From contig NC_087084.1 in assembly GCF_026151205.1 (NCBI RefSeq), positions 13,357,453 through 13,421,452 of the forward strand: DNA of 64,000 nt. The letters run 5' to 3'. The stretch is from Bolinopsis microptera. Taxonomy: Eukaryota; Ctenophora; Tentaculata; Lobata; Bolinopsidae. The position numbers were made by a program, and so were the translations under genes. Below, one piece after another: positions 18,296-61,349 of the stretch (positions are counted from its first letter, which is position 1; each line of letters opens with the position of its first letter). The notes under the pieces were generated by a model that worked only from the letters and a program-made list of their open reading frames with translations, made no database searches and was not told the origin of the DNA.

Positions 18296-19603
18296 CTAAA
18301 CAGACGTGTCCTGTATGTTGGTCTTTGTATTCTTTGAAGTCTGCAGTCCTTCTAGCTGGATCGATGGAATAATGGACGTTTCAAGTACTTCTTCTGCTGG
18401 AGTAGCTTTTAAGATAGAAGCAGCTCTTGGGTTGGGAGCAGCTCTTTGGTTGGGAGCAGCTCTTGGGTTGGGAGTGGCTCTTAGGTTGGCAGCAGCTCTT
18501 AGGTTGGCAGCAGCTCTTATGTTGGAAGCAGCTCTTAGGTTGGGAGCAGCTCTTGGGTTGGGAGCAGCTCTTGGGTTGGGAGCAGCTCTTAGGTTGGGAG
18601 CAGCTCTTAGGTTGGGTCTTTGTTCTACAGTGGCCGGTCTGACCGAGGACAGGATTTGAATAATCTTCAGTTTTAGAAAGGCTCTAAAACTACGCAGAGT
18701 TAGAGCATATATAAAGAAGTTTGCTATTATGTTCAAGTATGTGAGGCTGAGGCAACCAAATAATCCTATAGGTAGGAGATTAATGGAGTACGACAGGAAA
18801 AAGTATGGTAGCTGGGAGACTAAAAGCACCCCCACAGTCAGCAATACCGTAGAGATTCCCTCCCAACGCAGTCTGTCACCGTGTCTATCTGCTGCTTTTT
18901 TTGCAACAACCAGCAGAATTATTGAACTAACGATGACTATCAGCAAAGAGAGGACTGTGATGAGAAAATTAATGATTACAGAAAACAATATTAACCAGAC
19001 AGGAAATTGATAACTGTCATAACCACAAGATAAGAAGATCTTATCAAACCTAACATCCGAATAGTGGATCATTTTCATCACGAAAAACGGAGCATACAAC
19101 CCCAGAAAGAGAAGCCACACAGCAGTACAGATTTTGTGTCCAAGCCGAGAGGACCAAGAGCCTGTTCTGAGAGGATACTTCACTATCACCAGCTTCAGGA
19201 TCGTCAAAGCACAGGTTAACATAATGGTCACGGTATTGGTTAACCACGTCATATTTTCTTGAATATGACAGAACAGCGTCTCGCCCAGAGACATCTCTCC
19301 CAAATATGTCACATCCAGATTATAGGAGAAGAGATGATCAGGACCGATGCAGGTTACCAGAATCGTAGGCAACACTCTAAAAATCGTCTGCAGTAGATCA
19401 CAAACTGCCATGTGCTGCATAACAGCTATCACCACCTTGTGCTGCTTGATAGCCCTGTATTTTATGGTTGCTAAAAGAATGATACTGTCCCCGCTGAGAG
19501 AAGTCAAAAGAACTGTTCCCATCCACACATTCAAAATAATGAGATCTAAGGAGGTTGACGTTGCTAACGGAACGTTATAAACCTCCTCTTTGAACCTTAT
19601 CAT
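18296..19603 (-). CDS. Class A-like G-protein-coupled receptor with repeat tail
   Basis: Intronless 435-aa receptor in the plasma membrane; ligand unknown. Seven hydrophobic segments lie at about residues 22-46, 56-84, 118-143, 158-178, 202-234, 250-273 and 281-304. Rhodopsin-like landmarks are present in altered form: the TM1 GN motif reads GDS (38-40); the TM2 Asp is kept (D69 in AVCDLL); Cys112 and Cys193 fit the TM3-ECL2 disulfide. The DRY motif is replaced by KLV (137-139), TM6 has SQLPYFF, and the NPxxY motif reads NFFIY (295-299). The cytoplasmic tail (about 330-400) is about twelve tandem copies of a six-residue unit such as PNLRAA, coded by an 18-bp minisatellite. Lineage-specific orphan receptors of this kind are common in invertebrates. 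Loss of the DRY Arg suggests atypical G-protein coupling. The start is the first Met before TM1. Confidence 0.88.
   Translation of the reverse strand: MIRFKEEVYNVPLATSTSLDLIILNVWMGTVLLTSLSGDSIILLATIKYRAIKQHKVVIAVMQHMAVCDLLQTIFRVLPTILVTCIGPDHLFSYNLDVTYLGEMSLGETLFCHIQENMTWLTNTVTIMLTCALTILKLVIVKYPLRTGSWSSRLGHKICTAVWLLFLGLYAPFFVMKMIHYSDVRFDKIFLSCGYDSYQFPVWLILFSVIINFLITVLSLLIVIVSSIILLVVAKKAADRHGDRLRWEGISTVLLTVGVLLVSQLPYFFLSYSINLLPIGLFGCLSLTYLNIIANFFIYALTLRSFRAFLKLKIIQILSSVRPATVEQRPNLRAAPNLRAAPNPRAAPNPRAAPNLRAASNIRAAANLRAAANLRATPNPRAAPNQRAAPNPRAASILKATPAEEVLETSIIPSIQLEGLQTSKNTKTNIQDTSV
18405..18618 (-). repeat. 18-bp coding minisatellite in the GPCR tail
   Basis: About twelve copies of an 18-bp unit (on the + strand GTTGGGAGCAGCTCTTGG with variants) translate to the N-x-R-A-A tail of the receptor. 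The unit length keeps the frame open on both strands, so long antisense frames here are artefacts. Confidence 0.95.
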
Positions 19604-21017
19604 GTTTTTGTGAATCTACTCGGTCAAAAACCTGCACATAAATAAAAATTTAGATTTCAGTGACGTTGTCGTTATCGCTTATTAATAAGTTTAACAATTA
19701 AGACATAAATTACACGAAAAGTTAATTTGAAAAATAGAGTAAAATTAAGATTGGCGAACTGAAATAGTATGAGACACCGTGGTCCGCGACAGTGCACATA
19801 TTGTTTTGTTTCTTAAATTGTGCAATGACTGACGCCTTAGAATTAATATATGAAAATGAAGTGTCCAAAAGTAAAAGAGACTACTGAGTACTGATAGTGG
19901 CTGCAATGAAAAATATAAAAACTCGTCATTCCGTGAGAATTTGTGGGTGAATTACCGCAATAACGTAAAGGAAAATGGTACTGATAGAGCTGCTGTGTCA
20001 GCTACTCATCAAGACATTATCTTAGAGCTCGCCCATTTTACTGTAGTCATATTACAGACCAGGACGGTTTCAGGTCTGTCCCTGAAATTGTCCTGACCAA
20101 CGTAGCCTAGGGGTATTACTATCATGTATTACTTTTCTGCGTAAGCTACTTAAGTCGTGATTTCGACTGCTTTTTTGTAATCTTTTATTAACGGGTGACA
20201 CTCGTAAAATATTTGTTCCAAAACCGTCGACGAGTCCAACTCGGCGCGCGTCCTGGTAGGTTATAAACCTACAAAATATTTTACTACGCTTTATGTATAA
20301 TTATAAATAGAGCTTACAGATAAAATGAATAATGATCCTCAGTCCTCAGTCCTCAGTCCTCAGTCCTCACAATATAATATGAGTAGTGTCCATGACATCA
20401 TTCATGAAAATACGGTTTCATGCTCACCATCAGTATCACCTGATCTTTTGAACGGGAGTTCAGTGTATCAGTATGACATGAATATACATACTATGTACTA
20501 AAAAGCCCGTGGTCACAGGGAGGAAGGTAATAGTAATTCTTTGAGTTATAATAATGATAGTGTCGAACGGTATTCAACAAAATATGCAATAATTGGCCCT
20601 TACACCGGAGTCAAAAAGCCGATCACTAACAAATGACGAAAAGGAAGTCCCCAAAACTGTCGGTTAACCGTACTCCGTTACTGGGCGACGCTTAGCCTGC
20701 GCCTGTCATTTCGCCTAATCTCTATTCGGATTATGATTATGAACATAAATATAATAGCCTGGGGTCCCCAGGTAACGTACTCCAGTACTCGCTTATTGAG
20801 CTAAAGTTAGTGTTTTTACATTGACCAATTGATTGAAAAACGTAGTTCTTGAGCAGGATTCTCGGCCACAGTTGTCAGATTTCAGGGTATTTTTAAAATC
20901 CAAATGTTTGAAAAACTCAGGTTCGAGGACTGGTGCAATCTTGTTAACATCTGTCATCTTGTCATCTTTTATTAACATCTTGTTAACATCATTGTCACAG
21001 TTATAAGTTTGTTTATG
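19604..21017. other. Intergenic DNA between the GPCR and Kelch-like genes
   Basis: Holds the upstream region of the GPCR, a CAGTCCT pentuplication at 20336-20370 (same core as the tract at 1-1578), the second copy of the dispersed repeat at 20502-20540 and the 3' UTR of the Kelch-like gene. No further gene seen. Confidence 0.6.
20968..20973 (-). promoter_or_regulatory. Polyadenylation signal, Kelch-like gene
   Basis: AATAAA on the minus strand, 45 bp after the stop codon at 21018-21020. Confidence 0.6.
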
Positions 21018-24000
21018 CTACGTCACCACAACAGCACTGTATAATCTGGGTACCATGAACTGACCCACAGTTCGCCAGCTGTCTCTCTCATAATCGTACT
21101 TCTCTATAGTTGACACGTTCTTGTTCTTCTTGACCCCTCCAAACACGTACAGTACACCTTCACACACTTCACCCTGCAAATACACAGTTTAGTACAGTAC
21201 ACCTTTACACACTTCGCCCTGCAAATACACAGTTTAGTACAGTACACCTTCACACACTTCGCCCTGCAAATACACAGTTTAGTACAGTACACCTTCACAC
21301 ACTTCACCCTGCAAATACACAGTTTAGTACAGTACACCTTCACACACTTCACCCTGCAAATAAACAGTTTAGATCTTTAATATTTCGAATATTATTATTA
21401 ATGCTTTTATAGTATACAGATTTCTATATTAACATCACTTTTTTTAATTGAAATCTTTCAAATCGATCAATTACATACAAATTTACACAATGAATGAACA
21501 ACATTAAATTTTCTCAAAAGTATAAGACTCCGATAAAATCAGATTTTCTAGGACAAAATGTACGTAATCAAAGGACCTGAGGGTCACCAAAACACAGATG
21601 TTGAGAGCAAAATGCACCTCCTGCACAAGTATGGGCCCACGAAAATCTTGAATTTTAAATAGAATTTCAAATTTAGAAACACACAAAAATATAAAAAGCA
21701 ATCAAATCATATAATAAAGTGAAATCCATGATGTGATGATATGCACTAAAATGAGAAATGAGAAATACAGACAACAGGGATTTAAGCTCTTATGAACATA
21801 TTGTTAGCTTTAGGTAAACTGCCTCACATCTCTGTCTCGAGGGAATAATCTAGATCATAATCAAAGTCCTCCGGCAGAATTTTATCCCACATGTAGGAGG
21901 TCAATTTGCTTTTGAACTCAGAAATAGTCTCTATCTCACGTATAGCTAGAGGAATATCATTCCATTTGGAATGGGTCCTAAAGTAAAAGTTCTTAGCAAA
22001 AGCGTTAGAGCTTGCTCGTGGTAAGATCGAGCTTACAAAACATAAGGGGTCCATGTGGCTACTTCTTAACCTTGAGTGGCCTTGAAATGGTTGCAAATAT
22101 GAGGGTAAGGTGACAGGAATATGTTGCTTCACAATTTTAAAGAAGAAAATAAGGTCAAGAAAGTCAAAGCGGTCTTCTATGGGCATAATCTTAAGCTGTC
22201 TGCATTTTTGAATGTATGTGGATGGTGGATAACTCATATACTCCTCGCGTAGAATCCACTTAATAGCACGCTTTTGGAGGCCCTCCAGCTTGCTTATCTG
22301 GGATTTTGTGACCGGTCTCCATATAGCTGAGCAATGCTCAAATTGACTTCTCATTAAAGTGAGATACAGTACTCTACGACGATTTACATCTTGAACAAAA
22401 TAGCAATTTCTCCTTGCCATGCCTAATTTTTGGTTGGCCTTTGAAAGGACTTTAGAGCACTGGTCTTGCCAGTCGAGATTCTTGGTCACAAAAACACCCA
22501 GATCCTTTTCATGATCGACATAGTCAAGTGCGATTCTTCCCATGGAGTATACAAAGTTAAAGAGTGGTAGGACACTAAGGAGGGAAACTGTTTCGGATAT
22601 CCTTCCTGCGACGGTGAGGACCTTACATTTGTCGGGATGAAATCTCATTTTATTAGAAAGTGACCAGTCATGGAGATAATCAATGTCCTTCTGCAGTCGC
22701 AGGATATCAGACTCCGAAACAATCTCACGCCAAATTTTAGTATCATCGGCATACAGTGACAGTTGTGTGCCTGGTGAAATCCCCACTGATATATCATCAA
22801 TGAACATAATGAACTTCAAAGGTCCCAAAATTGACCCTTGTGGTACACCAGATTGGGCGTTTCTCATGGAAGAAAACTTACCATAAACTTTGATATTGTT
22901 TTGTATGAAAATCTCGTATCTCAAACAGCAGTGAACAACAAAGCGCCTACTTCAAATCTGACACCCACCCTACCTGTATGCAGTCCCTCTGTTTCGGGAA
23001 ATCCTTCAGCAGACTCCACTGTTTGTTCCTGAAATCATATTTCTCGACAGTTCGTTCGTTCCAGCCTCCTAACGCTATTATTGTACCTGTAACATCATGT
23101 CGATGAGATTTGTATTATAGTAGATGTAAACTTCTCTGTGGAGCATTTAAAGCAGCCCAGTTTCAGCAAGTAGAATGTAGAATGTAGAATGTAGAATGAA
23201 CGATGCATTTCAATTGTTGATTACTGTAAATGAGTCTAAATAGTTCAGCTGTAAATGAGTCTAAATAGTTTAGCTCGATGCAAGAGTCTGGGTTCGCATG
23301 TTGTCTAAATGCATTACTCACCTTCGACCATCGCAGCACAGAAAGCGTGCCTGAAATAAAAACAAGACTTTAATTCTCGAAGGACTAAAATAAAAGGAGC
23401 AAAATTGTTGCCGTAGCAACAAAGAATCTTGATAGGTTTCCGTTATTGTCTATTCTATAAAATTAAATAAATCACGTACGTGCGCGTAGAAGTTATGAAA
23501 CTTAAAATTAAGCGCGTTCCATTTCTTACAACTCGTTGCCAGCCAAAACGGCTTTTACCTCAAGTTACGAGTCGCTTCACGAACAGCAGAAGTTTGTTTT
23601 TGGGTTTATTCTATAACCGCACAATTTAACAGCAGATAAACTTTAAATCCAGAAAATTAAAAGATATGCTTACTTATCTCGCTCACCTTGGTTTCAACAT
23701 TGGCGGCATATTTTCCACAGATACCCCATCAGTTATAAGTTCTACAGAGGAGAGCTTATTTGTGCCGTATCCACCTAAAACTAGCACTCTGCTGGCCAAT
23801 CCTCCGCCACTGTCAATACCTGAGGTGGTCACGTGATCTAGAATACAGAAATACAATGAATAGTCACAAGTTGAATACAACTTTATCGTGCATTATAAGA
23901 CACGATCGTGCATAATAGTACATTAGCATTATACATTACTGACCGTAATAGTATAAAACCGCATTAAACTTATTTTATCAAAGAGAAGACTTCGAGTAAA

Positions 24001-27000
24001 CTGTAAATTGACCAAGCGCAAAAGGCTTATGAATAATCGATACCAATTGTAATGTAAGCATGAATGTCACGTGAAACACTCAGGTGACAACATAAGAGTT
24101 CCTTGAAAAATAATCCTACAATGATTAAAAGTTTCTGATTGAACTACTAGACGCTAAACCGCCTTCACATGATTACTTCTGTTACAGTAGAGAGACTAGT
24201 TTGAAGTTAGATCATATTATATACTCCCTCGGAGTATCGTCTTGATATTTACGTGATAATTTGACCACTGCAGAAGTTATCCTATGCATGAAATAATATT
24301 CAGATATCGTGGTATGAATTGTAGAGTATGCACTGAATTTTGAATAGAGTACACAATGTATAATGTATATATACATGTATACAGTTTACTATGTATTTAT
24401 GTATACAATGTACAGTATACTATGTAGTGTATACTATGTGTAAAGCAAATGTATTTTACCGATGGATGTTGCATGAGCCCGGGGGACAGTCAACTCTGGA
24501 CCTGTTGTCCATTCCTGCGAAGCTGTATCGTATATCTGAAATAAAGTTTAAAGAAATAAACTTTCCGCTATATTAACATCACTAGCAGGAACCCGTCTAA
24601 CCCTAAAGTGGTGTCAAGACTCGAGAGACTAAAATAATTATTACCTATTTAATTCGCGTTTTTGACACCACTTGAGAGTCCAAATTTTGGGCACTAAAAT
24701 TATTATTCCTTGGCCAATTTTTTATTTTTTCATGCTGATTTGAAGGCCATTAAAGCATTTGACCCAGTCAAAAAAGTTTCAGTTGTATATGTTTTACGGT
24801 TTTTGCGGAAAGTCGCGTTAAAGTTGATGCCGTGGTGTCAGTAAAATGGCACGGATATATACACATATATATATCGTCTCGCTTTATATATAGTAATTAA
24901 CATCATTACAACATTACTACCATTTAAGAAACAATTTCTAAGACATTCATGCTATCTTTAATGCAATAAAAGTAAGAAAAATTTACCTGAACAAGAGATG
25001 AAGGAGTAAGAGATCCAGTATCAGAGAGCTGATAACCCCCGATAACAAACACTTTCTTATCAGAGCTGGTAACAGTCACGTGATCACACCAAACTGGCAC
25101 TTTGCCAACCTCTTTGTACCGTTGTGAGTGCAACTCCAACTGGTACAACTAATGGATAGGCTCATGTTAATTACGTTCAGTTTCTAGAAGAATGTTTGCG
25201 GACTGTCACGTAGCTATTCCATTACTTTCAACTCACAGCGACATATAATATGATACTCACAGCAACATATGATATTCGATCTTTTCAGTAAGAATGAAAA
25301 ACAAGGCCTTCATCATAAATTTACTGCTAACCAAAAGTAAATTAACTAAATATTTATTACAGTTCAATAATATCACTAACAGTAACAATCCTAACCTTAT
25401 CAGAAACACCACTATCAGACCGACCCCCCACCAAGTACACAGCCCCGTCCACAACAGTAGCTCCACCTCCATAACTCCTGGTTACATTCCTTCCGCCACA
25501 TTCCACTGTAACGACTGGGAGCTGTGACGTCATCACTGTGACGTCATCACTGTGTGTTTTTGTGACGTCATCAACCGCTGGTGTGAAGGTGTTCCGGACG
25601 AAAGTGTTGGGGTCACGTGATAGCTTCGTGTGGTGAGGGATAAACACCTCAACGTCTGATGGGACTTTCTGGGTTGGGATTGTGTGCGGTGAGTGAGAGT
25701 ACATACTATTTTTGTTGGTATAAATATTAAGAATAAGTTATTAGTTGTAAGAAATGCAAGCGTTTTACATTTGTCGCTGTAAGCCTTCATTCGAATCATT
25801 TTAAACCATACTGTGTAAAACAGTCCAACATATTCAGTAGTAAAGTAGAGTATATTTACCGTGTCTGCGAGCCCCCCGATAATATACACTCGCCCGTTTA
25901 TCATACCCAGTCTCTCTTTACCCAACCCTTTACCTCCCTTAAAGTTCCTCCGCTTCCCTGACATGTCACGTGATGATGCTGATAATATCTCTTTGTAATG
26001 CTGCTTCACGTCCGGGGAGTTCTTCACCAGGTCACTTGTTATCACCTGGTAAACCACGTGGATTGAAGTCGTGTCACGTGGTGTGAAGTCGTGTCACGTG
26101 GTGTGAAGTACTGAAGTCGTCATACTAGATTTCGGAAAATTAGATGACAAAAAAATGTTTTTCGCAGAAATTCAAACCTTGTGTAATTCCTGATTCGAGA
26201 GAAGATCCACCATTAAACAGCAGAGAAGCTCTTCTTTGTAAAATTTCCTGAAATCTAGCGATAAACTCTGACCATTTTTTGGAAAAAACTGCAAATCGTA
26301 AGGTCTTAGCTTGATACTGTGGGATTTATTGTCAAATTGGTGTTTTCTTACATTAATCTGAAAAAAGGAGAAAAAGAAGCAAACTAACCTGCTGACAGGA
26401 TCATGACCAATCCATCTCTCAATAGCGCTAAAAACAAAGATCTCTTGTGAAATGTTGAGATCACAGTCTGATAACAAATAAAACAGGAGCTTGCTGGAGA
26501 AATCTGTGGAATGTGGATGTAATTTCATCAGCTGTACTCGCAATCTGGTTAAACTGTATGTAAAAATATTAAAAGATCTAAGCTGAATTCAATTCGTATT
26601 TTTTCTAATAAATTAATTTGGTATAATTAGCAGACCTAAATAATCACTGTCCTCGTAGATCTCTTCAAAACACTTCATTATTATTCTAACTGCTGATCTC
26701 TCAGTGTTCTTTAAACCGTGCTGTACTGAAAGCTTGTAGATCTGAAACGGTCAGTCAGTCAGATAATTTAAATTGACGAATTTGTAAAAATATGTAACGG
26801 AAAATAAGAATTTTTGATAGCTTAATTAATAATTACACAATACACATGTTACGTCACTAAGAGTGATTTTCAGGAAAGGCTTGCTATTCCACAACTTGTA
26901 CTGAGATTATCCCACAAAGTTGGCAAACATTCTTAAACTAATTAACATTCTTAATTAACATTCTTAATTAACATTCCTAATTAACATTCTTACATTTATA

Positions 27001-27952
27001 CAGTTGTTGGGTGCTAAATGTTTTCCAAACAATTCCAAACATCTTTGTCTGACTGTTGGAATTTGTAGAAAATCTGCAGTGAGAAACACGTCCTCTATAT
27101 TGAACGGACTTAACACCAGCTTTCCACTGTAGATGTAATCTGAAGTGTTTAAATACTGTGATACTTCCTTGTCAGAAATAACAACTGAATAACTGAATTA
27201 GCAGAAGGAATCAAATTTTGATTAATATTTTGTCTCTTTTTTAATTATGAAAAAGATGCAACCTGCTAAAACCAATGGTGCCCGTTGGAATTGTCCTCCT
27301 ATGGTATGCGAATTACGAGGAGGTCAGGATTTGTGGCCCACCAAGCTCTAACATCGCTACCGTTGACCAGTGGCCTCCAATAAAGGATGTATCAGATTTA
27401 GAGAACTAGAGAATTAGAGAACGAATGATTCACTTACCAACAATAACTTTAACAGATCTGAAGTTGATGTGTTTTAAAGTGATGACATCACTAGACTGTT
27501 CCGAGAAAGGAGAGGTGAACATTGCATCAAAGTAATCACTGTACCGTGCTAATAACTCTTTGTCAACCTGATAATAGGTTGCAAAAACTGTTCTTTTATC
27601 AACAAAATAACATCATTGGAAAATATTTTTGAACATGTGAAGTATTCAAAATATTTAATTGATTTATTTTTGTAAATAAAATTGTCTGAACAAGCATAAA
27701 TCTTGGACTAATCACTGGAAATTTTTGGAACGATAGAAATCAAATGGGTGATAAATTTAAAAAATGCTCTATTCAGTATATGCCCGAAATGCTAAAGTAT
27801 CTATCAGAAATGCCCACAGACAAAATATAAATAAATACCTTAAGTGATTGTGACCCTATCTTTAATTCAATAATCATCTTGCAATTGTTGGATGGTTTTG
27901 AACAATGAGGCTTTAACACTTCTGGTGCAATGCCGAGCTGTAATTGAATCAT
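21018..27952 (-). CDS. Kelch-like BTB-BACK-Kelch protein, complete 14-exon gene
   Basis: Such proteins are usually substrate adaptors of Cullin-3 ubiquitin ligases. Exons (5' to 3' on the minus strand): 27952-27839, 27567-27438, 27184-26994, 26741-26636, 26536-26389, 26247-26178, 26045-25860, 25668-25396, 25148-24987, 24535-24460, 23837-23687, 23350-23322, 23086-22974, 21173-21018. They sum to 1905 nt (634 aa plus TAG) with consistent phases. BTB, about residues 24-125: VDKELLARYSDYFDAMFTSP and DYIYSGKLVLSPFNIEDVF. BACK: NNCINIYKLSVQHG and ISQEIFVFSAIERWIGHDP. Kelch repeats carry GG signatures: VYIIGG, VYLVGG, VFVIGG, VLVLGG, IIALGG, LYVFGG. The start is the first Met after an in-frame stop; an upstream coding exon cannot be excluded. 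The acceptors at 26536 and 25668 were chosen by phase, so the exon at 26389-26536 is least certain. Exon 12 is a 29-nt microexon. A LINE occupies intron 13. Confidence 0.9.
21148..21371 (-). repeat. 45-bp minisatellite containing the last-exon splice acceptor
   Basis: Five copies of a 45-bp unit. On the gene strand each copy contains the acceptor TTTGCAG and the first 30 bases of the last Kelch-like exon (encoding GEVCEGVLY). The copy nearest the exon (acceptor at 21174-21175) continues in frame. In the four upstream copies the same frame reaches TAA right after the GEVCEGVLY codons. Confidence 0.9.
21824..22924 (-). mobile_element. 5'-truncated non-LTR retrotransposon (CR1/Jockey-like RT) in a Kelch-like intron
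   Basis: An uninterrupted 366-codon frame covers the C-terminal half of a LINE reverse transcriptase and beyond. It has the motif SGVPQGSILGPLKFIMFIDD, the catalytic YADD in LSLYADDTKIW, the thumb block LGVFVTKNLDWQDQC, and the C-terminal region RSQFEHCSAIWRP. The N-terminal fingers and the endonuclease are absent, as in typical 5'-truncated insertions. It lies within intron 13 of the Kelch-like gene in the same orientation; its start is about 50 bp from the donor at 22974. The long open frame suggests fairly recent insertion. It is distinct from the CR1 at the right end of the window (YADD here, FADD there). Confidence 0.85.
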
Positions 27953-34028: not shown

Positions 34029-37000
34029 ATGGATGTTTTATTTGAGACATCAATTTTAACATGGGTGGAAGAATCATCTAACAACAAGTTTCGTCAACCC
34101 ATTACAATCTGCATATCCTACTCCTCCAACAACACAGGTATTGTATTGTAGTAAATTATTTAATATTTTAATCTTGATTGGTTAATCACTAATCAAATAA
34201 AATAATTGCATGACTTGAAAAAGTAAATAGTGTATACATAGATGGTGCTGTCAATAATTTTACTGTGTGTAATTATATGCAATGTCTCTATGTTTTAAAA
34301 TAAGCAAAAATATCAGGACAACGGAAAGATCTCAACATCAGAGCAACGAATCCTGAAAATGCATTCATGCTTTATAACTTAAAATTGAATGAAGACGATT
34401 ACCATAACCTGAAAACGCAACAAGGTGAGTTTTGTAATGAACTAATAGAACAAATTATACGAATAAGACTCAAATTTGTAACTGATATAAATAAGCCTAT
34501 TTATATCTGGTAAAATACTTCAGAATCGTCACCTAAGTCTTATGATCTCTTAAATGTTAATTGTGATTCCTTCATAGGACTCCTGATAGATTTTCCTTCC
34601 TTCCCTGCAAAGTTTGTAGAGTTGTTACGTGCATGTGAGGGCGGTCAAGACAAGTTTCAACTCCACCTTATCATTCAGCATTCTACTGCTGTTCTCCAGG
34701 TAATGTTCCTTCACAGTATAGTAAATTTGTAAATTTCTTGTTGTAAAGTATCAGATAATCGTGTATTACACATCGATGTACCAACATTATTCTTGCCAAA
34801 AGGTTAATATTATACTATATATTATTCTTAAATACTATAAAATAAAGTACTATAGTTATTCTTAAAACAGGTAGTAGAAGTAAACCCCTTCAAGCATCTT
34901 GTACATCTCTCCCTGAATCTTTCTACAGCTACTGACGCTGTCATCAAGAAATACCTCTCTGGTGAGTGTTCTGCACTAAGTACTTTATTTGTGGTTTAGT
35001 ATCATTTAGTTCATGGTTTGAAATTCTACCAACTTTAAATTAAGTTAAGGTACTTTATTGGATAAGCAGTATTATTCTTTTATTTAGCTCAAGCTTTAAT
35101 GCATCTCTTACTCCAGATTGTCTACGAGATTTACAGAAGAAACACAAAGATTTGCATCAAAAGCATGATTCAGAAACTTCACAATTTACAGAGAAAATAA
35201 AATGCTTAGAAGAGTCGTCCATACAACTTAAAACTCAACTGCAAGGTTGATAATTGTACTATTTTTGATAATTGTACCATTTTTAATACTTCCAGCACTG
35301 CTGTCTGCTATGTAACAGATAGTTAGAGTTCTGATGAACCTGTATGAACAGACAAATCCATCTTAAGCTAAATTATCCCCAATAAGACATCATATCATTT
35401 GTTCAACTGTAATAGAGCTTCTAGAAAATATAATATACATTAAACATATTCTATGTGACCAATAAACATTAAAAGATTGCCCAATCATGCAACTTCGTCA
35501 TAAAACAAACCAGGTGGAGCCCGAGCCAAGGAACTAGAACTAAGCGAGCAAAGCGCATTGTTAAAGGAGCAAATGCAGAAGGAAAGAGATGCAGGTGCTC
35601 ACTTCCAGAAAGAAATTCAGGTATTTTCAAATCGTAAATGGGTAATTTTATCTTTGTCACGTCATGTGAGTTTCGTGCCATATTTGAGATCAGCGTACTA
35701 TATTCTAAGAATCAGATCTCAGTTTTTCACAAACTTCTGCTTCTAGTTTAAGAAATATGATCCTACTATCTACTCTCTAAATATCCATCCATCTTCGCTA
35801 CACTGTTATTTGTACAGCTATATTTTCGTCCCTAAAATGCAAGGGCTTTTGCTGATTCCAGTTACTTACTGGAGTACTACTGTGACATGCTTGTCTGATT
35901 GATCTCATGAACTTCTCTAGAGATGTCACATCTTCAGATTTTAAAACAAGTCTTCCAAGACCAAAGCTTCAGTTTAAATCTCTCTGAGAACCTCATATTT
36001 AGTCTCTCTGTCATAAATCAGTATTGCTACGAATCCCACCAAAGAAAAGAATAGGAAAAACCCCAAAACAGAATAAGGACTAACATAAAACAACAGGTAC
36101 ACAAGCGCAGTGCCTAAAACACCGCCTGCCTTTCCCCAACCGTTGATAAACCCAGTCGCTGTTGACCGGATGTTCGTGGGAAAACTTTCCGGTATCATGA
36201 TCCAAACTGTAACATTTATAAAAGCCTCTACGATTTTAGCAATAGTTGATGTTACAAAGGTGAAGGTTTCATTGACACACACAAACATACATCCTATTGA
36301 GAGTAACATGACAAAACTTGCCACTCTTATTGGAACCAAACGGCCTATACGTTCTGCTAGAAACAATGCTGCTATAGTTCCGAATATGCTTCCAACAGTC
36401 GCTATTGTTATCTTCCACAAATCATCCTGCGAGAGAAGACGACACTCGTGGGTTACTGTGTGAGATGCCCCGCACATATCAGAGCTGAAGATGAGAGGGA
36501 GCAGGACTATGAGACCAAATTCTATTAATAGATTGCTGAAGTAAATTACTGAAAGTGCAATGATTGACTTTCTGTGTTCCTTGTTCAGGACTGTGGAGTA
36601 GGACCCCAATTCCTCGTTATCAAAGCAAGCCATCTGTATATTACCTGGTAGTTCCCTTCCATTCAGATTAGCCATGGTCCTAACAGCTTCCATAGCTTTG
36701 TCCTGTTGTCCACTGACACAGAGAAATCTAGGAGATTCAGGAAGAACAAGTATTAAGACTAGAGCTGGTAAAGCTGGCGTTGAGACAAGCATGATGAACC
36801 AGCGCCACCCAACTATTTGTAAGAATAGAAATGCCATACCATTCACTGCAGCTACCCCAACAAACGAGCCTAAAACAACGGTCGTCACTCCATAGGTCCG
36901 GTAACGACTCTCAGCAATTTCAGTGGCATAGCAGATAACAACACTCGTGTTGATCCCAATACATGCACCCGTGAACAATCTACTCACAAGAAATACCCAT

Positions 37001-40000
37001 TTATTTGATGATGTAGCCCCGAGAAACGCTGCCAACAACAAAAACATCGTTGACCATATCACAACTTTTTTCCTTCCGTAAATGTCTGCAACTCTTCCAA
37101 ACACAGCAGCCAACAGTGCATAAGACCCGTACACGGTTATCGTGATGGCTGTTTCAAAGGTGGTAGACAGGCCCCATTCACATCTCAAGATAGGCAGAAT
37201 TACTGACAGGAGTGTTAACTCAGCATAGTCCGAGTAAACAACAAGCAGGACCATCAACCAGTACAGATACTGGGTCGGGCCTAGTCCTATCATCTCGTAT
37301 ATCTCCTCTAGTTCTAGAATGTTCTCGTCGGATTTTTGGGACGTTGAACCGTAATATTCAGTGGGGGAGTTATCTCGGTCAGCGGTAATATCTTGTGTCT
37401 CATCTGCCATGTTTGTCTTTGTTTTTATGCTAGACATATTTATTCACCTGAGATTGCTAGTGTTTAAATGTTATACTAGCCGAATATGGGATTGTTTACA
37501 TATCAGGCTTGCTTAATGCTTATCTGCAAACGATTCCTAGTTGAACGTGGTTTTAAAGTAGGTACTTTCCTAATCGTAGGTAGGGGGGGGGGGGGGGGGG
37601 GCAGGTAGCAACAGTCAACACTACAGAGAACATCTGCAAACAAGAAAAAGATTGTGAAATTTTATATGGTCACAGCTCAATAAGATATAACAGCACCACT
37701 GCACGGCTGCACCAGTTTCCCGTGTGGTCTTTCTTTTATATTAAGAAATATTCTTTTATATTAAGAAATGTAACTGTAAAACATTGATGTAAAATGTATA
37801 AAATTTGGTCGGAAAACAACTTATCCGTTGTTTTGATGTGAGTCATAAGGTTGGTCATAAGGTGGGCTTATACTTGTCAATTTGTCTACGTTTTTAAAAA
37901 AATCGTTTAAATCAAATAATAAAGTACTTATAGATTAGGCGATTCTGCAAACCTTGAGTAGATTTAAATAGTACTGTTCTTGTCGGGCTCGCTTTAAAAA
38001 AACCCTCTCATCCGGTCATCACTCTAAACCCTTATCCCTTATCCCTCATTTTCCCTCTTATTTTCCCTTATTTCCCCTCTTATTTCCCCTCTTCTTCTAT
38101 TCGACTCAGAGTTAAAGATTTCATGTGCATCATTCCACTGGCATTAAAAGTCGCAGCTTAAAAGTGTGAGTGTGTTTGTGCGTGTGTTTGCGTGTGTGTT
38201 TGCGTGTGTGTTTGTGTGTGTGTGTGTGTTTTATTGCTAAGCTCGTGAGATTAGAACATGTCATTTAAATTATCGTAACGTTGACTCACTCTTAAGTTGG
38301 AACTTAAATGCCTACTATGGTATATGTAACTTATCTAATATAACATGATTAAAATAACATTAAATATTTAACTTACTTTATCGCTCAGGAAAGAGCAGAT
38401 TTAGCAGAGAAGCAACTGGAGAATAAGATAAAGGATTTGGAGGGTAAAAGTAAGAAGTTGTTTGATGAGAAATGTAGGTACGAGCTTCAGAATAGAGAAC
38501 TAATCGCTAAGGTGGGTCAATTGTCTCTAAACTTTCTCTAAACTTTCTCTAAACTTCCTCTAAACTTTCTCTAAACTTCCTCTAAACTTTCTCTAAAAGT
38601 TCTCTAAACTTTCTCTAAACTTTCTCTAAACGTTCTCTAAACGTTCTCTAAGGAGGGTGAACTTTAATCTAGTCCGAGGAATCCTATCTCTCCTAGCATC
38701 CTAATATCCCTAAGATGTTGTTACTCTTGTCTCATATTACTCATTTCTAGTTAAATGTGGAATTGCAGTAAAAATTAATGTTCTTAGCTATTCTCTACAA
38801 AAAACACAAGCAAGTAAATAACACAAGCGCGAACTTAGTAAAAAACTCTAGACTTTCAATAGAATTTTTATTATTGTTAAAAAGTCGTCACCTTTGAATG
38901 CTAAACTAACTGTTTTTGAAACCTCAGGTGAAACTGTACGAGGAGGAGAGGCTAACTGAAAAGGGAGAGATTAAACACTTGAAGATGGAGCAAAATGAAA
39001 TGGAGAAAGAAAGGCAAAACGATGTGGTAATTGATTTACTCTTTTTGTAAATATAGCCGAGTAAATACGACAAGTAGAATACACTTTTTAAAGTTTAATT
39101 CGCTACTCGCTTGAAGATCTCATAAACTTTTAAATTGAAGTTTTAATTAAAGTTTTGATTGATAGTCATTAACAATAACTGGTCCTCAGAAAGAGTTACA
39201 CTCGGTAAAGACGCAACTAGCAGTAGCAAGACAAGAACTAAAAGACAACCAGCTTACCATAACCAATATTCAAGAGCAACTTACCGTTTCTACTGCTCAG
39301 AAATCCAAACTTGAGAATCAGGTGGAATGTTTGTTAGATTACATATGAATTAAAAGATTAGGCGGTCAAGCTAGTGTTCAAACTACATAAAATCTGACAA
39401 ATCAACTGTGCTACAAGTTTATAATTATTTGTATTATAAAGAGATTTTTCGACAAATTGAAGGACTAAGCTTATATATTCGGTCCTGATTTAAACAGCAT
39501 AATAGATTGTACAACTTTTGAATAAATATTTACCGATAAAGTGCTGTATAAAATTTTACTTTTATTTATTTATTTATTTATTATAATGTTTAAATACTCT
39601 TCTCCAGATCGACACGCAGCATTACCAATGTGTAAAGTTGGAAAACACTGTCAGAAGCGTTAGTGAGGAGGTGAGATAAGTGGATAATTATCTTAATTAC
39701 TATTTAATTAAGTAATTACCAGAGTTTAATTTAATTAATTAATTACCAGAGTTTAATTTAATTACATAATTACTAGAGTTTAATTTTATTAAGTAATCAC
39801 TAGAGTTCAATTTAATTAAGTAATCACTAGTTTTATATAGAGAACGTGTTTCCAAATGGATTTTAACAATGTTTAAACAGGTTGTGAAAGGGAATGAGAT
39901 TATAACTAAGATGCAGAACGATTTAAAGAATTACCGAAGTAAACTAAAGATAAAACACATGCAGACAGTTCAACAGGAGAAGGTATTTAATTTTAATTAA

Positions 40001-42780
40001 TATAAACCAATTTAATTTAATTTAGCCAACTTAATATTATTGACTCTTAAAGTCAATTCAATGATATAATTAACTAATTATGGACCCTGATCATTAGAAA
40101 AGTTCGCAAGAGGCAGATCACTTTCTTTTACGATTTTTCAAAATTTGACTTAGATTTCATAGAAAGGGCTTTTTAGAATTAGGTGTATGATATTTCACAC
40201 ATCTTTGGTTCAACTTATTAACTAGAACTTACGATCCAAAGTATGTTTAATGCATTTAGTCGGGGGCTAGCGAGTCATTTTAAAGTCTTTTGCAGCGAGG
40301 GAATTGTTGACAAGCAAGCATGAACTAAAATTTCAACTATAATTTCCGCTAGAATAACAAAATTCTGAAACGTTGTTAGTTGTTATGAGTATAAGTGTAA
40401 GTTCCAACCACAAAGTGCGGTGTCTCTCGTTCAGTGACGTTTGATTTATCGTGATTCATGACGTGAAAAGTTAAGTTATCGGAAAAGTTGATAAAGCAAA
40501 CAAGCGAATAGAAAGGACAAATTATTATTCGAAATGAAAAGCTGATCAAGTTAGTGTGTACGCCGTAAAATTAGGGGTTAGCAACTCTACGATGCAATGG
40601 TTCCAGCAAGAAAATTCAGACAAAAGGTTTCTACGAAACACAAACTCTGAATTTATTGCAATGTTTGTTTACGAAAAAGCTTACCTGTAGCCGCGTAGCC
40701 GTGTATAACTGAGCAACTTGATGAGGTAGACGTATCGAGGCGCGGTAATTCGGGGTTCTACTGTTTCTCGTATTAACTAATTGTGTAACATTATTCAAGA
40801 CAATACAAGAGAAAGATGAGGAAACCAGAAAACAGAAAAAGCAGATAGAATCGTCTGAAACGGAGATAACAGACAAGCAGAACATTATTGAGAAACTCGA
40901 CGCTTGTAAACTTGAGATGGAGCTACGAATCGATGAGGTTGGGACTAATAATAATAAATTGGGACTAATAATAATAAATTCACCTGAGCAATGTTTACCG
41001 GAAGTCGGAATGTGATATGCCACGTTTACCTGCCACTCCACATTTTTGTAGAAAGTATCCTAATTTTGGAGATCACTAAAATTAAAATTTATATCCCAGT
41101 ACCAAAAAACGCTGAAGAGTAACGAAAATGTGATAGCTTGGCTGAACAAGCAAATAAACGACAAAGTGTCCCTGGGTATTGGACCAAGGTCACTTCCCTC
41201 GCTGCTGCGCAACACTACTGCTGACATGCGCGCCCCGGGTGCTGACATGCGCGCTCCTGGTCCCTATGGTCCTCCGCCAAATCGGGGTCCTATTCAGGAC
41301 TTGAGGAACACAGGCTCTGCAAAACCAATGGGACAAGATAGGTAACTGAAATTTTGTAACTTGTAAAATGTTTCCAGGAAAAATTAGGATGGATACTCCG
41401 TCTATTTGAAAGCGAGTTGGTGCTGTTTCTTAGATTATGCCTATGGCAAAGATTTTACAATTGTTCAAAAAAACAAAAAATTTTCATTTCAATCAAATAC
41501 AGCAATATTTCAGATATAACAGAGGTGAAATGAATAGTTCATCAACTCCAGCTATTGATATTTCTAACACTTCACGTGAGTTTATTAACTTTAAAATACA
41601 GTCTAGTCTGGCATTGTCATTCCTCTGTTTAAATCATGTCAGTAAGTTTGTTTTTTGTAACCTTTTTTTATTCCACCAAAATTGACGTAACCATGCTAGA
41701 AATGGGTAGAAATTAGTCTGATTTCTCTTAGATGTCCAACTTGAATGCCGTTGATTAGAAATGAGCTCATTATAATTTCACTGACAGGAACCCAGCGAGG
41801 AGGTGATTACCACCATTTATCAAGTTTTGAGAACAGTAAGAAAGATGACAGTCTACTAGACGAATGTTATTTGAAGGATTCAGAGAATTTAGTGGAAGAT
41901 ACACTGAAATCAGTGTCCGAGACGCCAGAGCAGGTAACTAAAAAAATCATTTAAAAAAAATCGAAAGAAAGTCTGAGAAGTGTGAAATGTAATGACAATC
42001 AATTAAAAAACACCCCTTCCTCTAAATTAAGTGCACGACGATGTGATGCAGATATTCTGTGATGTTGTGATACGAACGTGTGTGAACTGTGAAGTGTGAA
42101 GTGTGAAGTGTGAACTGTGAACTGTGAACTGTGAAGTGTGAAGTGTGCGAAGTGTGAAGTGTGAAGTGTGAACTGTGAACTGTGAAGTGTGAAGTGTGAA
42201 GTGTGGAGTGTGAAGTGTGAAGTGTGAAGTGAAATCGGACATACATAATATGATAGCTGAATTATGTAAGTTTATTTTTTTGACATCATCGTATCATATC
42301 AAGTACGGTTTGTCATGATTTTAACATAACTTGCTAAACCAACAAAAAAATTTTGCGTCCCAAAAAAAGTTGGAATAATTTATTCCGTGCGGTATTATAA
42401 CCACATACATAACAATAGAAATAAGAATTAAACATTTCTTCACCTTCTGCGATCTAAAAATACCTAATTTCTAATTTTCGCAGGTTATTACAATTGGAAA
42501 CAGGGGAAAGAAAGTGTTGTCCCAAAGACAGAATGATACGATTAGTTCTACACAAAGTAAACCACATTCCATCCTCAAACGTAAGTTTAATCACTGTGTT
42601 ACGATTTGTTTTTGAGAGTTTGCCACATATAATCATGATAATGTTTCATGATACGAGTTGTTTAAAAAATAAAAATTGCTTTCGGTTTTTTGGGAAAATA
42701 TTAATATATTCCTGAACAATTTTTTTGCAGGCGGCACAAGATCGAATGAACCGCCTCTTATGAAAGCGTATGCCCCTTGA
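34029..42780 (+). CDS. SASS6: Spindle assembly abnormal protein 6 (SAS-6), complete 17-exon gene
   Basis: SAS-6 oligomerises into the ninefold cartwheel that templates centrioles. Exons: 34029-34137, 34317-34424, 34578-34699, 34871-34961, 35117-35245, 35514-35620, 38389-38511, 38928-39026, 39190-39321, 39608-39670, 39881-39982, 40800-40937, 41100-41341, 41514-41575, 41788-41933, 42484-42580, 42731-42780. They total 1920 nt (639 aa plus TGA) with matching phases, close to the roughly 650 aa of vertebrate SAS-6. The N-terminal head domain (about 1-143) shows family blocks FMLYNLKLNEDDYHNLKTQQ, GLLIDFPSFPAKFVELL and VVEVNPFKHLVHLSLNL. A heptad-rich coiled coil follows (about 145-455), ending at SNENVIAWLNKQIND, the conserved motif before the disordered Pro/Gly/Ser-rich tail. 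The upstream ATG is used because the next (34033) terminates quickly. Intron 6 contains an entire opposite-strand transporter gene. Confidence 0.95.
35974..37437 (-). CDS. SVOP/SV2-like major facilitator transporter, nested and intronless
   Basis: A 487-aa, twelve-helix member of the major facilitator superfamily, closest in style to SVOP and organic-cation-type transporters; substrate unknown. A hydrophilic N terminus of about 55 residues precedes TM1. Motif A between TM2 and TM3 reads GRVADIYGRKK (114-124). After TM4 comes ATEIAESRYR (171-180), and after TM6 the sugar-porter/OCT motif LPESPRFL (232-239). A Cys-containing loop after TM7 (SSDMCGASHTVTHECRLL) may be extracellular. Near TM11, IPESFPTNIRSTATGFINGW matches SVOP-type proteins. 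The gene lies wholly inside SAS-6 intron 6, on the opposite strand. The absence of introns beside an intron-rich host suggests origin by retrocopying or intron loss (inference). A second Met at residue 10 is an alternative start. Confidence 0.9.
   Translation of the reverse strand: MSSIKTKTNMADETQDITADRDNSPTEYYGSTSQKSDENILELEEIYEMIGLGPTQYLYWLMVLLVVYSDYAELTLLSVILPILRCEWGLSTTFETAITITVYGSYALLAAVFGRVADIYGRKKVVIWSTMFLLLAAFLGATSSNKWVFLVSRLFTGACIGINTSVVICYATEIAESRYRTYGVTTVVLGSFVGVAAVNGMAFLFLQIVGWRWFIMLVSTPALPALVLILVLPESPRFLCVSGQQDKAMEAVRTMANLNGRELPGNIQMACFDNEELGSYSTVLNKEHRKSIIALSVIYFSNLLIEFGLIVLLPLIFSSDMCGASHTVTHECRLLSQDDLWKITIATVGSIFGTIAALFLAERIGRLVPIRVASFVMLLSIGCMFVCVNETFTFVTSTIAKIVEAFINVTVWIMIPESFPTNIRSTATGFINGWGKAGGVLGTALVYLLFYVSPYSVLGFFLFFSLVGFVAILIYDRETKYEVLREI
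37583..37604. repeat. Poly-G run
   Basis: About twenty G residues, 150 bp upstream of the nested transporter's start codon. Exact length uncertain. Confidence 0.8.
38168..38230. repeat. GTGTGTTTGC microsatellite
   Basis: Alternating GT with interspersed TTTGC, about 60 bp, in SAS-6 intron 6. Confidence 0.85.
38522..38652. repeat. 12-bp CTCTAAACTTTC minisatellite beside a splice donor
   Basis: About ten copies, starting 11 bp after the donor of SAS-6 exon 7, with variants CTTCC and CGTTC. Intronic. Confidence 0.9.
39690..39835. repeat. AT-rich tandem repeat (TTAATTAAGTAATTACCAGA)
   Basis: About four imperfect copies of a unit of roughly 32 bp with AGAGTTTAATTT, filling most of the short intron between SAS-6 exons 10 and 11. 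Confidence 0.8.
42077..42235. repeat. 7-bp GTGAAGT/GTGAACT minisatellite
   Basis: About 22 copies of a heptamer in the SAS-6 intron after exon 15. Frames through it on the minus strand are artefacts. Confidence 0.95.
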
Positions 42781-46479: not shown

Positions 46480-47797
46480 TTACTTCTTCTCCTTAGAGCC
46501 GCCGACTAACACGCTGATTTTCATCTGAGAGATTTCCTTCTCATCCTCCGCCTCATAATCCAAGTCTTCGTCCTAAAATAGAATTGTGTTACATTATCAA
46601 TTGTTTGTTATTTAACTAGAAACACACTAAATGTTACATTATCTATTGTTTGTTATTTAACTAGAATCACACTAAGTGTTACATTATCTATTGTTTTTTA
46701 TTTAACTAGAATCACACTAAATGTTACATTATCTATTTTTTGTTATTTAACTAGAATCACACTAAATGTTAAATTATCTATTGTTTGTTATTTAACTAGA
46801 AACACACTAAATGAGCAGACTTGCATACTGTACAACGTCAGCATTAAGCAAGTGAATCAAACAAACATTATATTTTTGTTCACTCAAAAGACACAAATTG
46901 TTGTCAATTTAAGTTCTAAAAAATTCGAATATTAGAGATATTTACCTCGTTTTCTGACAGAATGTCTTGTTTGACTTCAGCTTTCTTGACAGCTTTCTCT
47001 GGCGACTTTTTGTTCATTTTAAAAACTTCGTCTAAGGTGACCTCTTCTCCGCCTGGACAATATCCATATTAAAACAATGTCATAAGGTAGACTTCCTCAT
47101 TATCTGATCCAATTGTATATTTTAGGAATTTACATGAGGAATTTATCTTACCTTCTGGGGTATGTGAGTCAATATTATCTGTACTCAAATCACTATAAAT
47201 ATCCACCTCTTCAACATCCAGATTCCGCACCATCTGTAACGGTTCTAAGGCAGATACTTTAACTGGTTTAACAGGAGATTCAACCTTTTCTAAAATCACT
47301 TCTGGCTCTGATAATTGGATCTCTTTCTCAATATTTGTGAAGTCTATTTTACCCATAACTTTGATCTTCTTAGTAGGCTTCCGATTCTTAACTTGTGCAA
47401 TATTTTCAACATTATCTGATACTGATTTATCTGGAGATTCAATAAAAGTTGGGCTCATTAGAAGGCTCTCGGAAATAGAATCGTCCCTCTCGGATGTAGT
47501 CAATGATATTTCAAGCTCAGATATAGATATTTTATCAGTCTTGCTCACTGAGACGCTATTCTTAGTTTTCCTTCTCTTCGACTTCTTCACGACCACAGGA
47601 GATTCCCCCAGTAGTTCCTCCTCCAGAAGAGACGATTCGAGGGAGTTTTTACGTGTTTTAGCATGGTTAACAGGCTCGGTAAACAGGTCGTCCTCGCCCA
47701 GCAGCAGGGATTCTTCGATCTCGTCGAATGATTGTTGAGTTTGAGGTTTGTGCTTTGGTTCTTTGGACTTTTTGGACTTTTTCTGCGATTTGGGCAT
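46480..47797 (-). CDS. Lys/Ser-rich acidic protein, probably nuclear, uncharacterised
   Basis: Three exons: 47797-47152, 47052-46946, 46572-46480; 846 nt, 281 aa plus TAA, phases consistent. It opens with a strongly basic stretch (MPKSQKKSKKSKEPKHKP), a likely nuclear or nucleolar signal. Repeated acidic SLLEEELLGE-type segments follow, including ESLLLGEDDLF, LESSLLEEELLGES and ISESLLMSP. Basic clusters include KKSKRRKTK and RKPTKKIKV. The C terminus is acidic (ENEDEDLDYEAEDEKEIS) then QMKISVLVGGSKEKK. The composition suggests disorder, with many potential CK2 phosphosites. No enzymatic or fold motif is seen and I do not recognise the family. The start is the first Met of the long first exon, with in-frame stops upstream. 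Confidence 0.7.
46586..46812. repeat. 45-bp minisatellite, five copies, in an intron
   Basis: Unit GTTACATTATCTATTGTTTG plus TTATTTAACTAGAATCACAC and TAAAT. It begins 14 bp upstream (gene strand) of the acceptor of the last exon of the acidic-protein gene, but does not include the acceptor itself. Confidence 0.92.
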
Positions 47798-58504: not shown

Positions 58505-59416
58505 ATGGAAAACAAGGACGGGCAAAAGGGGCACACTGATAGTGCCCCAGCCAGTAGAGAACATGTAGAGACGAATGAACAAGCTGAAAAAGAAAGTACT
58601 AAACCTGAAGAAGATTGTTTCTGCAAGGAACACATCGATGATTCTCTATGGATCAGATGTGATTATTGCATTAAATGGTGTCATCTTGATTGTGTTGGAC
58701 TGACAGGACTTGACGAGGATCAGGTGCTTTTGATCAAACAATATAAGTGTCCACACTGCATTGTCAATGCGACAACAGTGCTGATTAAGTTGAGTGAAAC
58801 CATTAATGAAACGGTTACCAATGCTGTTAAAAACAGTCTGCAGAACGAGTTACCCACAGCAATGGCTGCTGTCAAAAAAGATATAGTCAATGAATCATCC
58901 TCAAAAGTGAAGAGCTACGTTGATGCAGCAAAGGTTGACCTCCAGGCAACTATTAGTGACAAGCCACCAACTCAATTAGTGAATGCAACAGTCCAACAGA
59001 TTGATGCTGACAAGATCCAACGGATCAAAAGAGAATGTAATGTGATCATTAGACATGTTCCCGAAATGGCTATCAAAGAGAACAGATCTCAAAGCAATGA
59101 TCTCAAGTTTTTACATGAAACCTGTGGCATGGAAGAAGACGTGATTGTGTCCTGTTTTCGGGCAGGTAAATTAACTGAATCTGGTAAAAGCAGGGAACAT
59201 CAACCTAGACCGCTGATTGTAAAACTAAAATCAAAAGAGGCTGCACTATATTGGAGTAACTATGGAAAAGGTTGGAAGATAGAAGTGGATTCTGAGAAAG
59301 TAAAGAAAGAAGTTTTTTGGATCAATCAGGATCTGAACAGAGCTGACAGAGACGTCCAATTTTTTGTGAGACAGGAACGGAGAAAGCGACTTGCAGAGAA
59401 AGCAAAGAATGCCTAA
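58505..59416 (+). CDS. CR1-like LINE ORF1 protein with PHD finger
   Basis: 303 aa from the first ATG. Residues about 38-87 form a PHD-type zinc finger: CFCKEHIDDSLWIRCDYCIK, then WCHLDCVGL and KCPHC (Cys4-His-Cys3). PHD-bearing ORF1 proteins are known from invertebrate CR1 elements, where they are thought to bind chromatin or assist RNP assembly. A helical region (about 90-180) follows, then an RRM-like segment (NVIIRHVPEM...RPLIVKLKSKEAALYW) as in many ORF1 proteins. A basic C terminus (RRKRLAEKAKNA) is suited to nucleic acid binding. The frame is intact. ORF2 begins within about ten bases of its stop in another frame. Confidence 0.88.
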   Translation: MENKDGQKGHTDSAPASREHVETNEQAEKESTKPEEDCFCKEHIDDSLWIRCDYCIKWCHLDCVGLTGLDEDQVLLIKQYKCPHCIVNATTVLIKLSETINETVTNAVKNSLQNELPTAMAAVKKDIVNESSSKVKSYVDAAKVDLQATISDKPPTQLVNATVQQIDADKIQRIKRECNVIIRHVPEMAIKENRSQSNDLKFLHETCGMEEDVIVSCFRAGKLTESGKSREHQPRPLIVKLKSKEAALYWSNYGKGWKIEVDSEKVKKEVFWINQDLNRADRDVQFFVRQERRKRLAEKAKNA

Positions 59417-60012
59417 ACCTTAAATTGTTTTACAGTAATAGTAATAGTTTATATAATAAGTTTTGTGAATTGAGAAATGCTGTTTCGCTGTACCAGTCTG
59501 ACATTGTTTGCATAAATGAAACTCATTTTAACAATGAAATTATTGATGCTGAAATTAGCATACCTGGTTTCAAAATATTTAGAAAAGATAGAGATTTTAC
59601 AGTTAATGAAGAAATAGGAGAAAGTTCTGTTAGTAGTGGTGGAGGCTGTATTATTTATATTAAAGACTCTTTGAACCCAGTTGTCATAGATTGGTTTAGG
59701 GTCACTGATTCGATTGCTGTTGAATTCGATAGCAACATTGGTAGGGTAAATATTGCATGTATTTATAGATCAATGTCTCTTTCTAAAGCGCAGAACAATG
59801 CGATGACCAAAATGATTGGAAAACTAGCTGTTTTTAATGTTGAATCAATCCTAGTTGGAGATTTGAATTTACCAAATGTATCTTGGCTTAGTGGAACTGT
59901 TAATGCTCCTTTAGGAACAAGTAATAAGGGTTTAATTATAGAAAAGAATTTTATGGAATGTGTACAAGACAATGGCTTGGTTTGGTATATCACAGATGAA
60001 GTTACCAGAGGC
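59417..60012 (+). pseudogene. CR1-like LINE ORF2, 5' part (AP endonuclease), interrupted
   Basis: Encodes most of the apurinic-like endonuclease: FYSNSNSLYNKFCELRNAV, the catalytic Glu in CINETHFN, a Gly/Ser loop before GGGCIIYIKDS, and VGDLNLPNVSW with the conserved Asp and Asn. The frame is then cut by the 1.3-kb foldback insertion at 60018. No in-frame ATG is evident at the beginning, so ORF2 may rely on reinitiation after ORF1, or start at an internal Met. Confidence 0.85.
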
Positions 60013-60017
60013 AACTT

Positions 60018-61338: not shown

Positions 61339-61349
61339 AACTTCCCTTA

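Follow-up and report, generated by a model that had tools for sequence, protein, structure and literature searches.

The last acceptor of a KLHL-type gene in the window (the whole 64,000-bp stretch of DNA analysed here) lies inside a 45-bp minisatellite, and each of the five copies repeats the intron/exon boundary. We regard this array as probably a mirage-type minisatellite that was born by short-homology tandem duplication and is tolerated via exon-proximal splicing. An amidase-family gene in the same window has an array of the same layout at one of its acceptors. Across the six genes that we modelled, intronic arrays were found close to splice sites more often than placement within introns predicts, on the donor side as well as on the acceptor side.

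Gene Models and the KLHL Host Gene

We modelled six genes in the window, referred to as KLHL, amidase, SAS-6, RRM, GALNT-like, and small lysine-rich, which together comprise 54 exons and 48 introns. In each model, the first exon and the start codon were placed by reading. The SAS-6 model matched SAS-6_N (E = 9.9e-25) and the RRM gene matched RRM_1 (E = 0.00016). Glycosyltransferase and ricin-lectin matches were obtained for three of the six pieces of the GALNT-like gene that were tested, and the other three had no Pfam match; this model lacks some exons and does not form one frame, and its splice sites were counted anyway. The small lysine-rich gene had no Pfam match when its first-exon ORF was searched. 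An intronless sugar-transporter/MFS ORF (35977–37443, minus strand; Pfam) is nested in an intron of the plus-strand SAS-6 gene.

The exons of the KLHL gene (21018–27952, minus strand) were assembled by combining minus-strand reading frames with GT-AG pairs, which resulted in 14 exons separated by 13 GT-AG introns. A single open frame of 605 residues runs through all 14 exons. Pfam matches to the model were, in order, BTB (1.7e-18), BACK (4.2e-17), and Kelch_1 (5.4e-32), and the best Kelch_1 stretch (residues 557–591) falls within the terminal exon. PDB sequence matches include designed Kelch proteins, KEAP1 and KBTBD2. The Pfam and PDB matches therefore identify the terminal exon as a real Kelch-coding exon. 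Judged by its sequence, the host of the 45-bp array is a real, intact-looking KLHL-type gene.

The authentic terminal exon (21018–21173, minus strand) encodes the last Kelch repeat in 51 codons plus a stop. It is joined by exon 13 (22974–23086, minus strand), the phase-0 donor of which reads CATACAG GTAGGG, with the boundary after CATACAG. Intron 13 lies between them (21174–22973, minus strand; 1800 nt) and contains a reverse transcriptase ORF at 21824–22951 (RVT_1, E = 1.5e-10).

Layout of the 45-bp Array

The minisatellite was reported by TRF as one array at 21147–21372 on the minus strand, with a period of 45, 5.0 copies, 97% matches, and a score of 424. It extends across the 3' end of intron 13 into exon 14. 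The repeat unit consists of the last 18 nt of the intron and the first 27 nt of the terminal exon; on the minus strand, a copy reads CTAAACTGTnTATTTGCAG up to the intron/exon boundary and then GGYGAAGTGTGTRAAGGTGTACTGTA, the first exonic bases. An earlier sequence-only reading of this DNA had described five 45-bp copies with TTTGCAG, and both TRF and the sequence of the copies agree with it (TTTGCAG is present in five of five). Its start of the array at 21018 is the end of the stop codon of the exon and had to be moved to 21147, and its 30 exonic nt per copy had to be reduced to 27.

The first exon bases of the copies are at 21173 (real), 21218, 21263, 21308, and 21353. The exon-proximal copy was taken as the real acceptor and the four upstream copies as decoys, a division that corrects the earlier description. 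The exon-proximal copy continues into GTGTTTGGAGGG... and is the only one that continues the reading frame, into a complete last Kelch repeat; the other copies return to TAAACTG. The four decoys (21189–21353, minus strand) are each open for nine codons up to an in-frame TAA. The lowest of these stop codons occupies 21189–21191, and the next ORF starts at 21188. That the decoys truncate the last Kelch repeat is borne out by these in-frame stops, which the translations place after GEVC(E/K)GVLY in four of four decoys. The claim that all of them read GEVCEGVLY holds for the stop after nine codons and fails for the peptide, since one decoy reads GEVCKGVLY.

The array measures 226 bp, or 5 x 45 + 1, which from the coordinates gives 1 bp of end homology. 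There are few variants overall among the copies: GGC is common to copies 3 and 4, and TTT is private to copy 1.

We infer the used acceptor, the tolerance of the array, and its growth process as follows. The array would have begun as a tandem duplication, with 1 bp end homology, of 45 bp lying across the intron/exon boundary. With homology this short, the first duplication agrees better with slippage or short-homology joining than with an exchange between long repeats. Neighbouring copies would have been added later by slippage or unequal exchange, and the GGC shared by copies 3 and 4 fits growth by the copying of neighbours. Exon 13 would mostly be joined to the exon-proximal copy, with the four upstream copies staying intronic; the Kelch protein would then be unchanged and the array thus tolerated. 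A leak to a decoy would yield a terminal exon that reaches TAA after nine codons and, according to the translations, a protein without 42 of the last 51 residues.

The Amidase-Family Gene and Exon Pieces in Introns

The earlier reading had also mentioned a second gene in the 64 kb with the same architecture. Such a gene is present, and we take it to be the amidase-family gene. Exon 7 of this penicillin-amidase-family gene is touched by a 52-bp minisatellite (49799–50123, minus strand), which was delimited by TRF, the gene model, and decoy translations and has six copies, one of them the real acceptor and five of them decoys. TTGCAG is present in all six copies; TGTTTGA borders the array upstream, and TGTTTTGA borders it downstream. 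The reading frame is shifted by the 52-bp unit, with each of the five decoys stopping after at most 20 residues. The 50-aa piece around exon 7 had no Pfam match alone; the full eight-exon model matched Penicil_amidase over residues 59–742 of 744 (E = 1.1e-103), which therefore supports the exon touched by the array. In the KLHL and amidase arrays alike, the unit extends across the intron/exon boundary (27 and 37 exonic bp, respectively), the copies contain splice signals and the authentic boundary is at one array end.

We compared every exon with every intron of the models for exact matches. Three of the 48 exons preceded by a modelled intron had a 27–37 bp exact piece of their own in the adjoining upstream intron, namely amidase exon 7 (37 bp), amidase exon 5 (29 bp), and KLHL exon 14 (27 bp), and none of 48 had one in the downstream intron. 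This difference between the acceptor and donor sides (3/48 vs. 0/48, p = 0.24) is not claimed as a bias. Over the same cut, matches were found for two of 2,496 same-orientation non-flanking exon–intron pairs (13 and 15 bp) and for one of 2,496 reverse-complement comparisons (12 bp). The 27-bp KLHL match is not due to chance, because the longest same-orientation non-flanking match among the 2,496 was 15 bp.

The piece of amidase exon 5 (exon positions 50776–50804) was located by the exon/intron comparison and in the sequence as a 29-bp exact copy at 51438–51466 (minus strand) in the upstream intron. It adjoins the far end of a 609-bp array of 20 bp x 30.5 (50829–51437, minus strand; TRF), which ends 9 nt before the acceptor of exon 5, and an acceptor-like TTCCTTAG precedes it. 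This piece represents a third case of boundary copying, either decayed or differently built.

Separately, the repeats at 26055–26109, 50829–51437, and 25522–25554 are related to each other and rich in CACGTGAC/TGACGTCA. In two genes, KLHL and amidase, the related 20-bp unit stops 9 nt short of an acceptor. The 14-bp repeat at 25522–25554, the core of which is as in this 20-bp unit, lies inside KLHL exon 8.

Arrays Relative to Splice Sites

We estimated the association between arrays and splice sites from the arrays with a TRF score of at least 50 in the spans of the six genes (n = 35). Some arrays might be expected to cover acceptors by chance in a repeat-rich genome such as this, given that 50 merged arrays cover 8,274 of the 64,000 bp in the window. 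Under uniform placement, the number of acceptor-spanning arrays was two of 35 against 5.28 expected, and the number of donor-spanning arrays was zero of 35 against 5.31. When at most 40 exonic bp were tolerated, the mean for acceptor spanning was 1.62, with P(>=2) = 0.48. Boundary spanning is probably trimmed by selection.

Adjacency to splice sites was assessed by moving each array only inside its own intron. Fourteen of 33 intronic arrays were within 20 nt of a splice site, where 3.93 were expected (P = 2.8e-7); the pattern was first noticed in the same window, so the test is post hoc and this and the following P values are descriptive. Eight of the 14 were on the donor side and six on the acceptor side. 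The corresponding counts (n = 33) were 10 against 2.06 expected within 10 nt and 15 against 7.63 within 40 nt (P = 0.00018). Within 20 nt, the excess was also found without the two spanning arrays (12 of 31 vs. 3.69 expected) and in introns under 1 kb (13 of 16 vs. 3.73). For the first four genes, it was stable at TRF cut-offs of 50, 40, and 30 and was seen under random placement over all introns as well, with the single exception of acceptors at 40 nt (acceptors alone, cut-off 50: P = 0.055). The two later-added genes contributed two arrays, the positions of which had been seen before counting; both were within 20 nt (P = 0.036), with P values of 0.21 at 10 nt and 0.14 at 40 nt.

Three arrays begin at intron base +2. 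Two of these follow donors of the SAS-6 gene, as modelled with its SAS-6_N match, on the plus strand (18 bp x 2.3 at 35247–35288 and 20 bp x 2.1 at 40939–40980; TRF), and the third follows the donor of KLHL exon 3 (13 bp x 4.2 at 26939–26992, minus strand; TRF). On the acceptor side, all on the minus strand and detected by TRF, a 20 bp x 2.8 array (26055–26109) stops 9 nt short of the KLHL exon 7 acceptor, a 10 bp x 6 array (49317–49376) stops 10 nt short of the last amidase acceptor and supplies its pyrimidine-rich stretch, and, in a small unnamed gene, a 45 bp x 5 array (46587–46813) ends at most 20 nt from the exon 3 acceptor.

Edge and interior arrays did not differ in purity (median 93.5 vs. 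96% matches, p = 0.52) or period (p = 0.48); the median copy number was 5.0 for edge arrays and 2.8 for interior arrays (p = 0.051). The idea that edge arrays are older through protection was rejected on the same purity and period comparisons. Slippage in polypyrimidine tracts was likewise rejected as a common cause, given eight donor-side and six acceptor-side arrays; few of the 13 stretches inspected repeat a pyrimidine run. Since arrays are as frequent at donors as at acceptors, the link is with exon edges and not with polypyrimidine tracts, to which the sequence-only reading had tied its mechanism. Its broader proposal of a recurrent mechanism at acceptors is partly supported: the arrays are non-randomly linked with exon boundaries, but there is no excess of acceptor-spanning ones.

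It is quite possible, if short of an even chance, that minisatellites in this genome arise preferentially at exon edges, donor and acceptor alike; the edges would then be a mutational hotspot, with the KLHL array as one instance. The counts within 20 nt argue for this, both in full and after the restrictions above, as does their stability over the TRF cut-offs; the similar purity of edge and interior arrays gives no sign of longer survival at edges. However, the test was conceived after examples in the same window and covers six genes and 33 arrays on our own gene models, the two later genes reached significance at 20 nt and not at 10 or 40 nt, acceptors alone fell short at 40 nt, and acceptor spanning was below the uniform expectation. 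Protection of exon-adjacent DNA from deletion is also compatible with the data.

More tentatively, exon edges in this genome, donor and acceptor sides alike, may be where minisatellites preferentially arise or persist, with spanning mirages as the visible tip. Interrupted repair would fit this. In a highly heterozygous animal, homologue-templated repair would run smoothly in conserved exons and break off at the diverged intron, and short-homology template switches would gather at exon edges. If so, the edge excess should rise with heterozygosity across species. If an excess of this size (14 of 33) held across the genome, what is known gene by gene as a peculiarity of lancelets would become a mutational pattern that can be measured at exon boundaries, and new introns and alternative acceptors would be supplied by this route.

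Chance coverage of acceptors in repeat-rich DNA seems a doubtful explanation. It agrees with the low number of acceptor-spanning arrays, but it leaves the adjacency excess and the third exon fragment unexplained.

Acceptor Strength and Consequences of Decoy Use

We scored acceptors with a matrix derived from 49 of the 51 modelled acceptors of the window, the KLHL and amidase test acceptors being left out. Real acceptors had a leave-one-out median score of 7.4. Among the 121 AGs scored at 21050–22960, which covers KLHL intron 13 and the first part of exon 14, the most distal copy scored 5.64 and copies 3 and 4 scored 4.95. The authentic copy and copy 2 were outside the 14 best of the 121 and thus scored at most 4.53; several AGs outside the array scored as high. 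In the amidase gene, the six copies were the best six of 29 AGs (49760–50310) and scored almost alike (7.88 to 8.87). The authentic site is therefore not singled out by local sequence in either gene, and substantial use of decoys could occur as far as acceptor scores go. Five to six near-identical acceptors about 45–59 bp apart in one intron are a natural test of how the spliceosome chooses among equal sites.

Junction-dependent decay should spare a stop in the last exon. By this general rule, a KLHL decoy mRNA should escape decay, as no exon junction follows its stop; decay would be expected for the amidase decoy mRNAs, in which another exon junction does follow. Splicing in serial 44-nt steps along the copies, for which each copy offers a weak donor-like GGYGAAG, was set aside because the 48 modelled introns have a minimum length of 99 nt and one base would be gained with every step.

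The KLHL copies could instead be functional alternative acceptors, where choice of a distal copy would give a truncated Kelch protein escaping decay. TTTGCAG in every copy, the uniform stop after nine codons in the decoys and the slightly higher score of the distal copy are consistent with such a role, and boundary tandem repeats can splice alternatively in human paralogs, as described in part of PMC2812944. We nevertheless consider it unlikely. The available portion of PMC3902484 describes lancelet mirages without aberrant mRNA. With copies 97% alike, conservation is indistinguishable from recency, the decoy stop is a by-product of exonic GTAC meeting intronic TAAAC, and the amidase decoys end otherwise, by frameshift.

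Draft assemblies often misstate the number of repeat copies. An assembly artefact that multiplied the boundary segment, as might be suspected from such errors and from one lancelet mirage that was aberrantly assembled in a draft genome (PMC3087553, in part), is highly improbable given the private and shared substitutions among the copies and the recurrence of the layout in a second gene.

Other Features of the Window

Several further features were observed in the window. Opposite-strand ORFs at 60000–60224 and 61132–61377 have the same translation from GRLPPDS to the end and flank a minisatellite core, which sits between retrotransposon-like ORFs at 59347–60210 and 61307–63763 on the plus strand. 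By reading, this arrangement resembles an inverted-repeat element inserted in a non-LTR retrotransposon. A long single ORF at 18296–19615 resembles a seven-helix receptor by reading, with no Pfam match at E 0.01, and its C-terminal tail is an 18 bp x 11 repeat (18419–18616; TRF). A 1.5-kb TCC-rich imperfect repeat (TRF) occupies 19–1497, and the first 2 kb have a GC skew of -0.60. No RNA families or tRNAs were found within the 64-kb window.

Comparison with Known Systems

By their layout, the KLHL and amidase arrays belong to the already described mirage kind. The lancelet globin mirages of BflGb6 and BflGb9 are minisatellite-like repeats across an intron/exon boundary (PMC3087553, in part). 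These and the Adh3 mirage share with our arrays the boundary-spanning repeats, the splice signals in the copies and the authentic boundary at one end. Unit sizes differ: 45 and 52 bp here, 150–160 bp in BflGb6, 157 bp in BflGb9, and 10–72 bp in Adh3, according to the same portion of that paper, in which Adh3 data and globin RT-PCR suggest that regular splicing is undisturbed. Repeats of lancelet Adh, TnC, and PGBD5 abut or overlap splice sites, and lancelet mirages are reported to yield no aberrant mRNA (PMC3902484, in part). There, the 60- and 108-bp repeats of PGBD5 likewise coincide with, overlap or abut splice sites; they are imperfect, whereas the two arrays here are nearly perfect and many smaller arrays abut without overlap. 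The genes differ as well, KLHL and amidase family here and others in the lancelet, and our arrays are known from DNA alone. Searching the open-licence full-text literature, we found no counts of array positions relative to splice sites in such genomes; the window-level exon-edge excess is an added observation.

The minisatellite of human IFI6/G1P3 reportedly gives multiple splice donors that are used in transcripts. Its copies would thus hold splice signals as ours do, donors there and acceptors here. Variable internal tandem repeats of human paralogs include minisatellites at exon–intron boundaries that are able to alter splicing or give rise to new introns; unlike our arrays, they occur in segmentally duplicated genes and have transcript support (PMC2812944, in part). 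CeRep25B of C. elegans resembles our arrays as an intronic minisatellite linked with alternative splicing, but it is a dispersed family in flanking introns, and splice-site duplication is not stated in the portion of PMC4039745 concerned. Finally, intron gain by tandem duplication of a proto-splice site, as presented in part of PMC2891723, also creates extra splice signals. In that process a coding duplication becomes an intron, whereas here the acceptor of an existing intron has been multiplied and there is no sign of a new intron.
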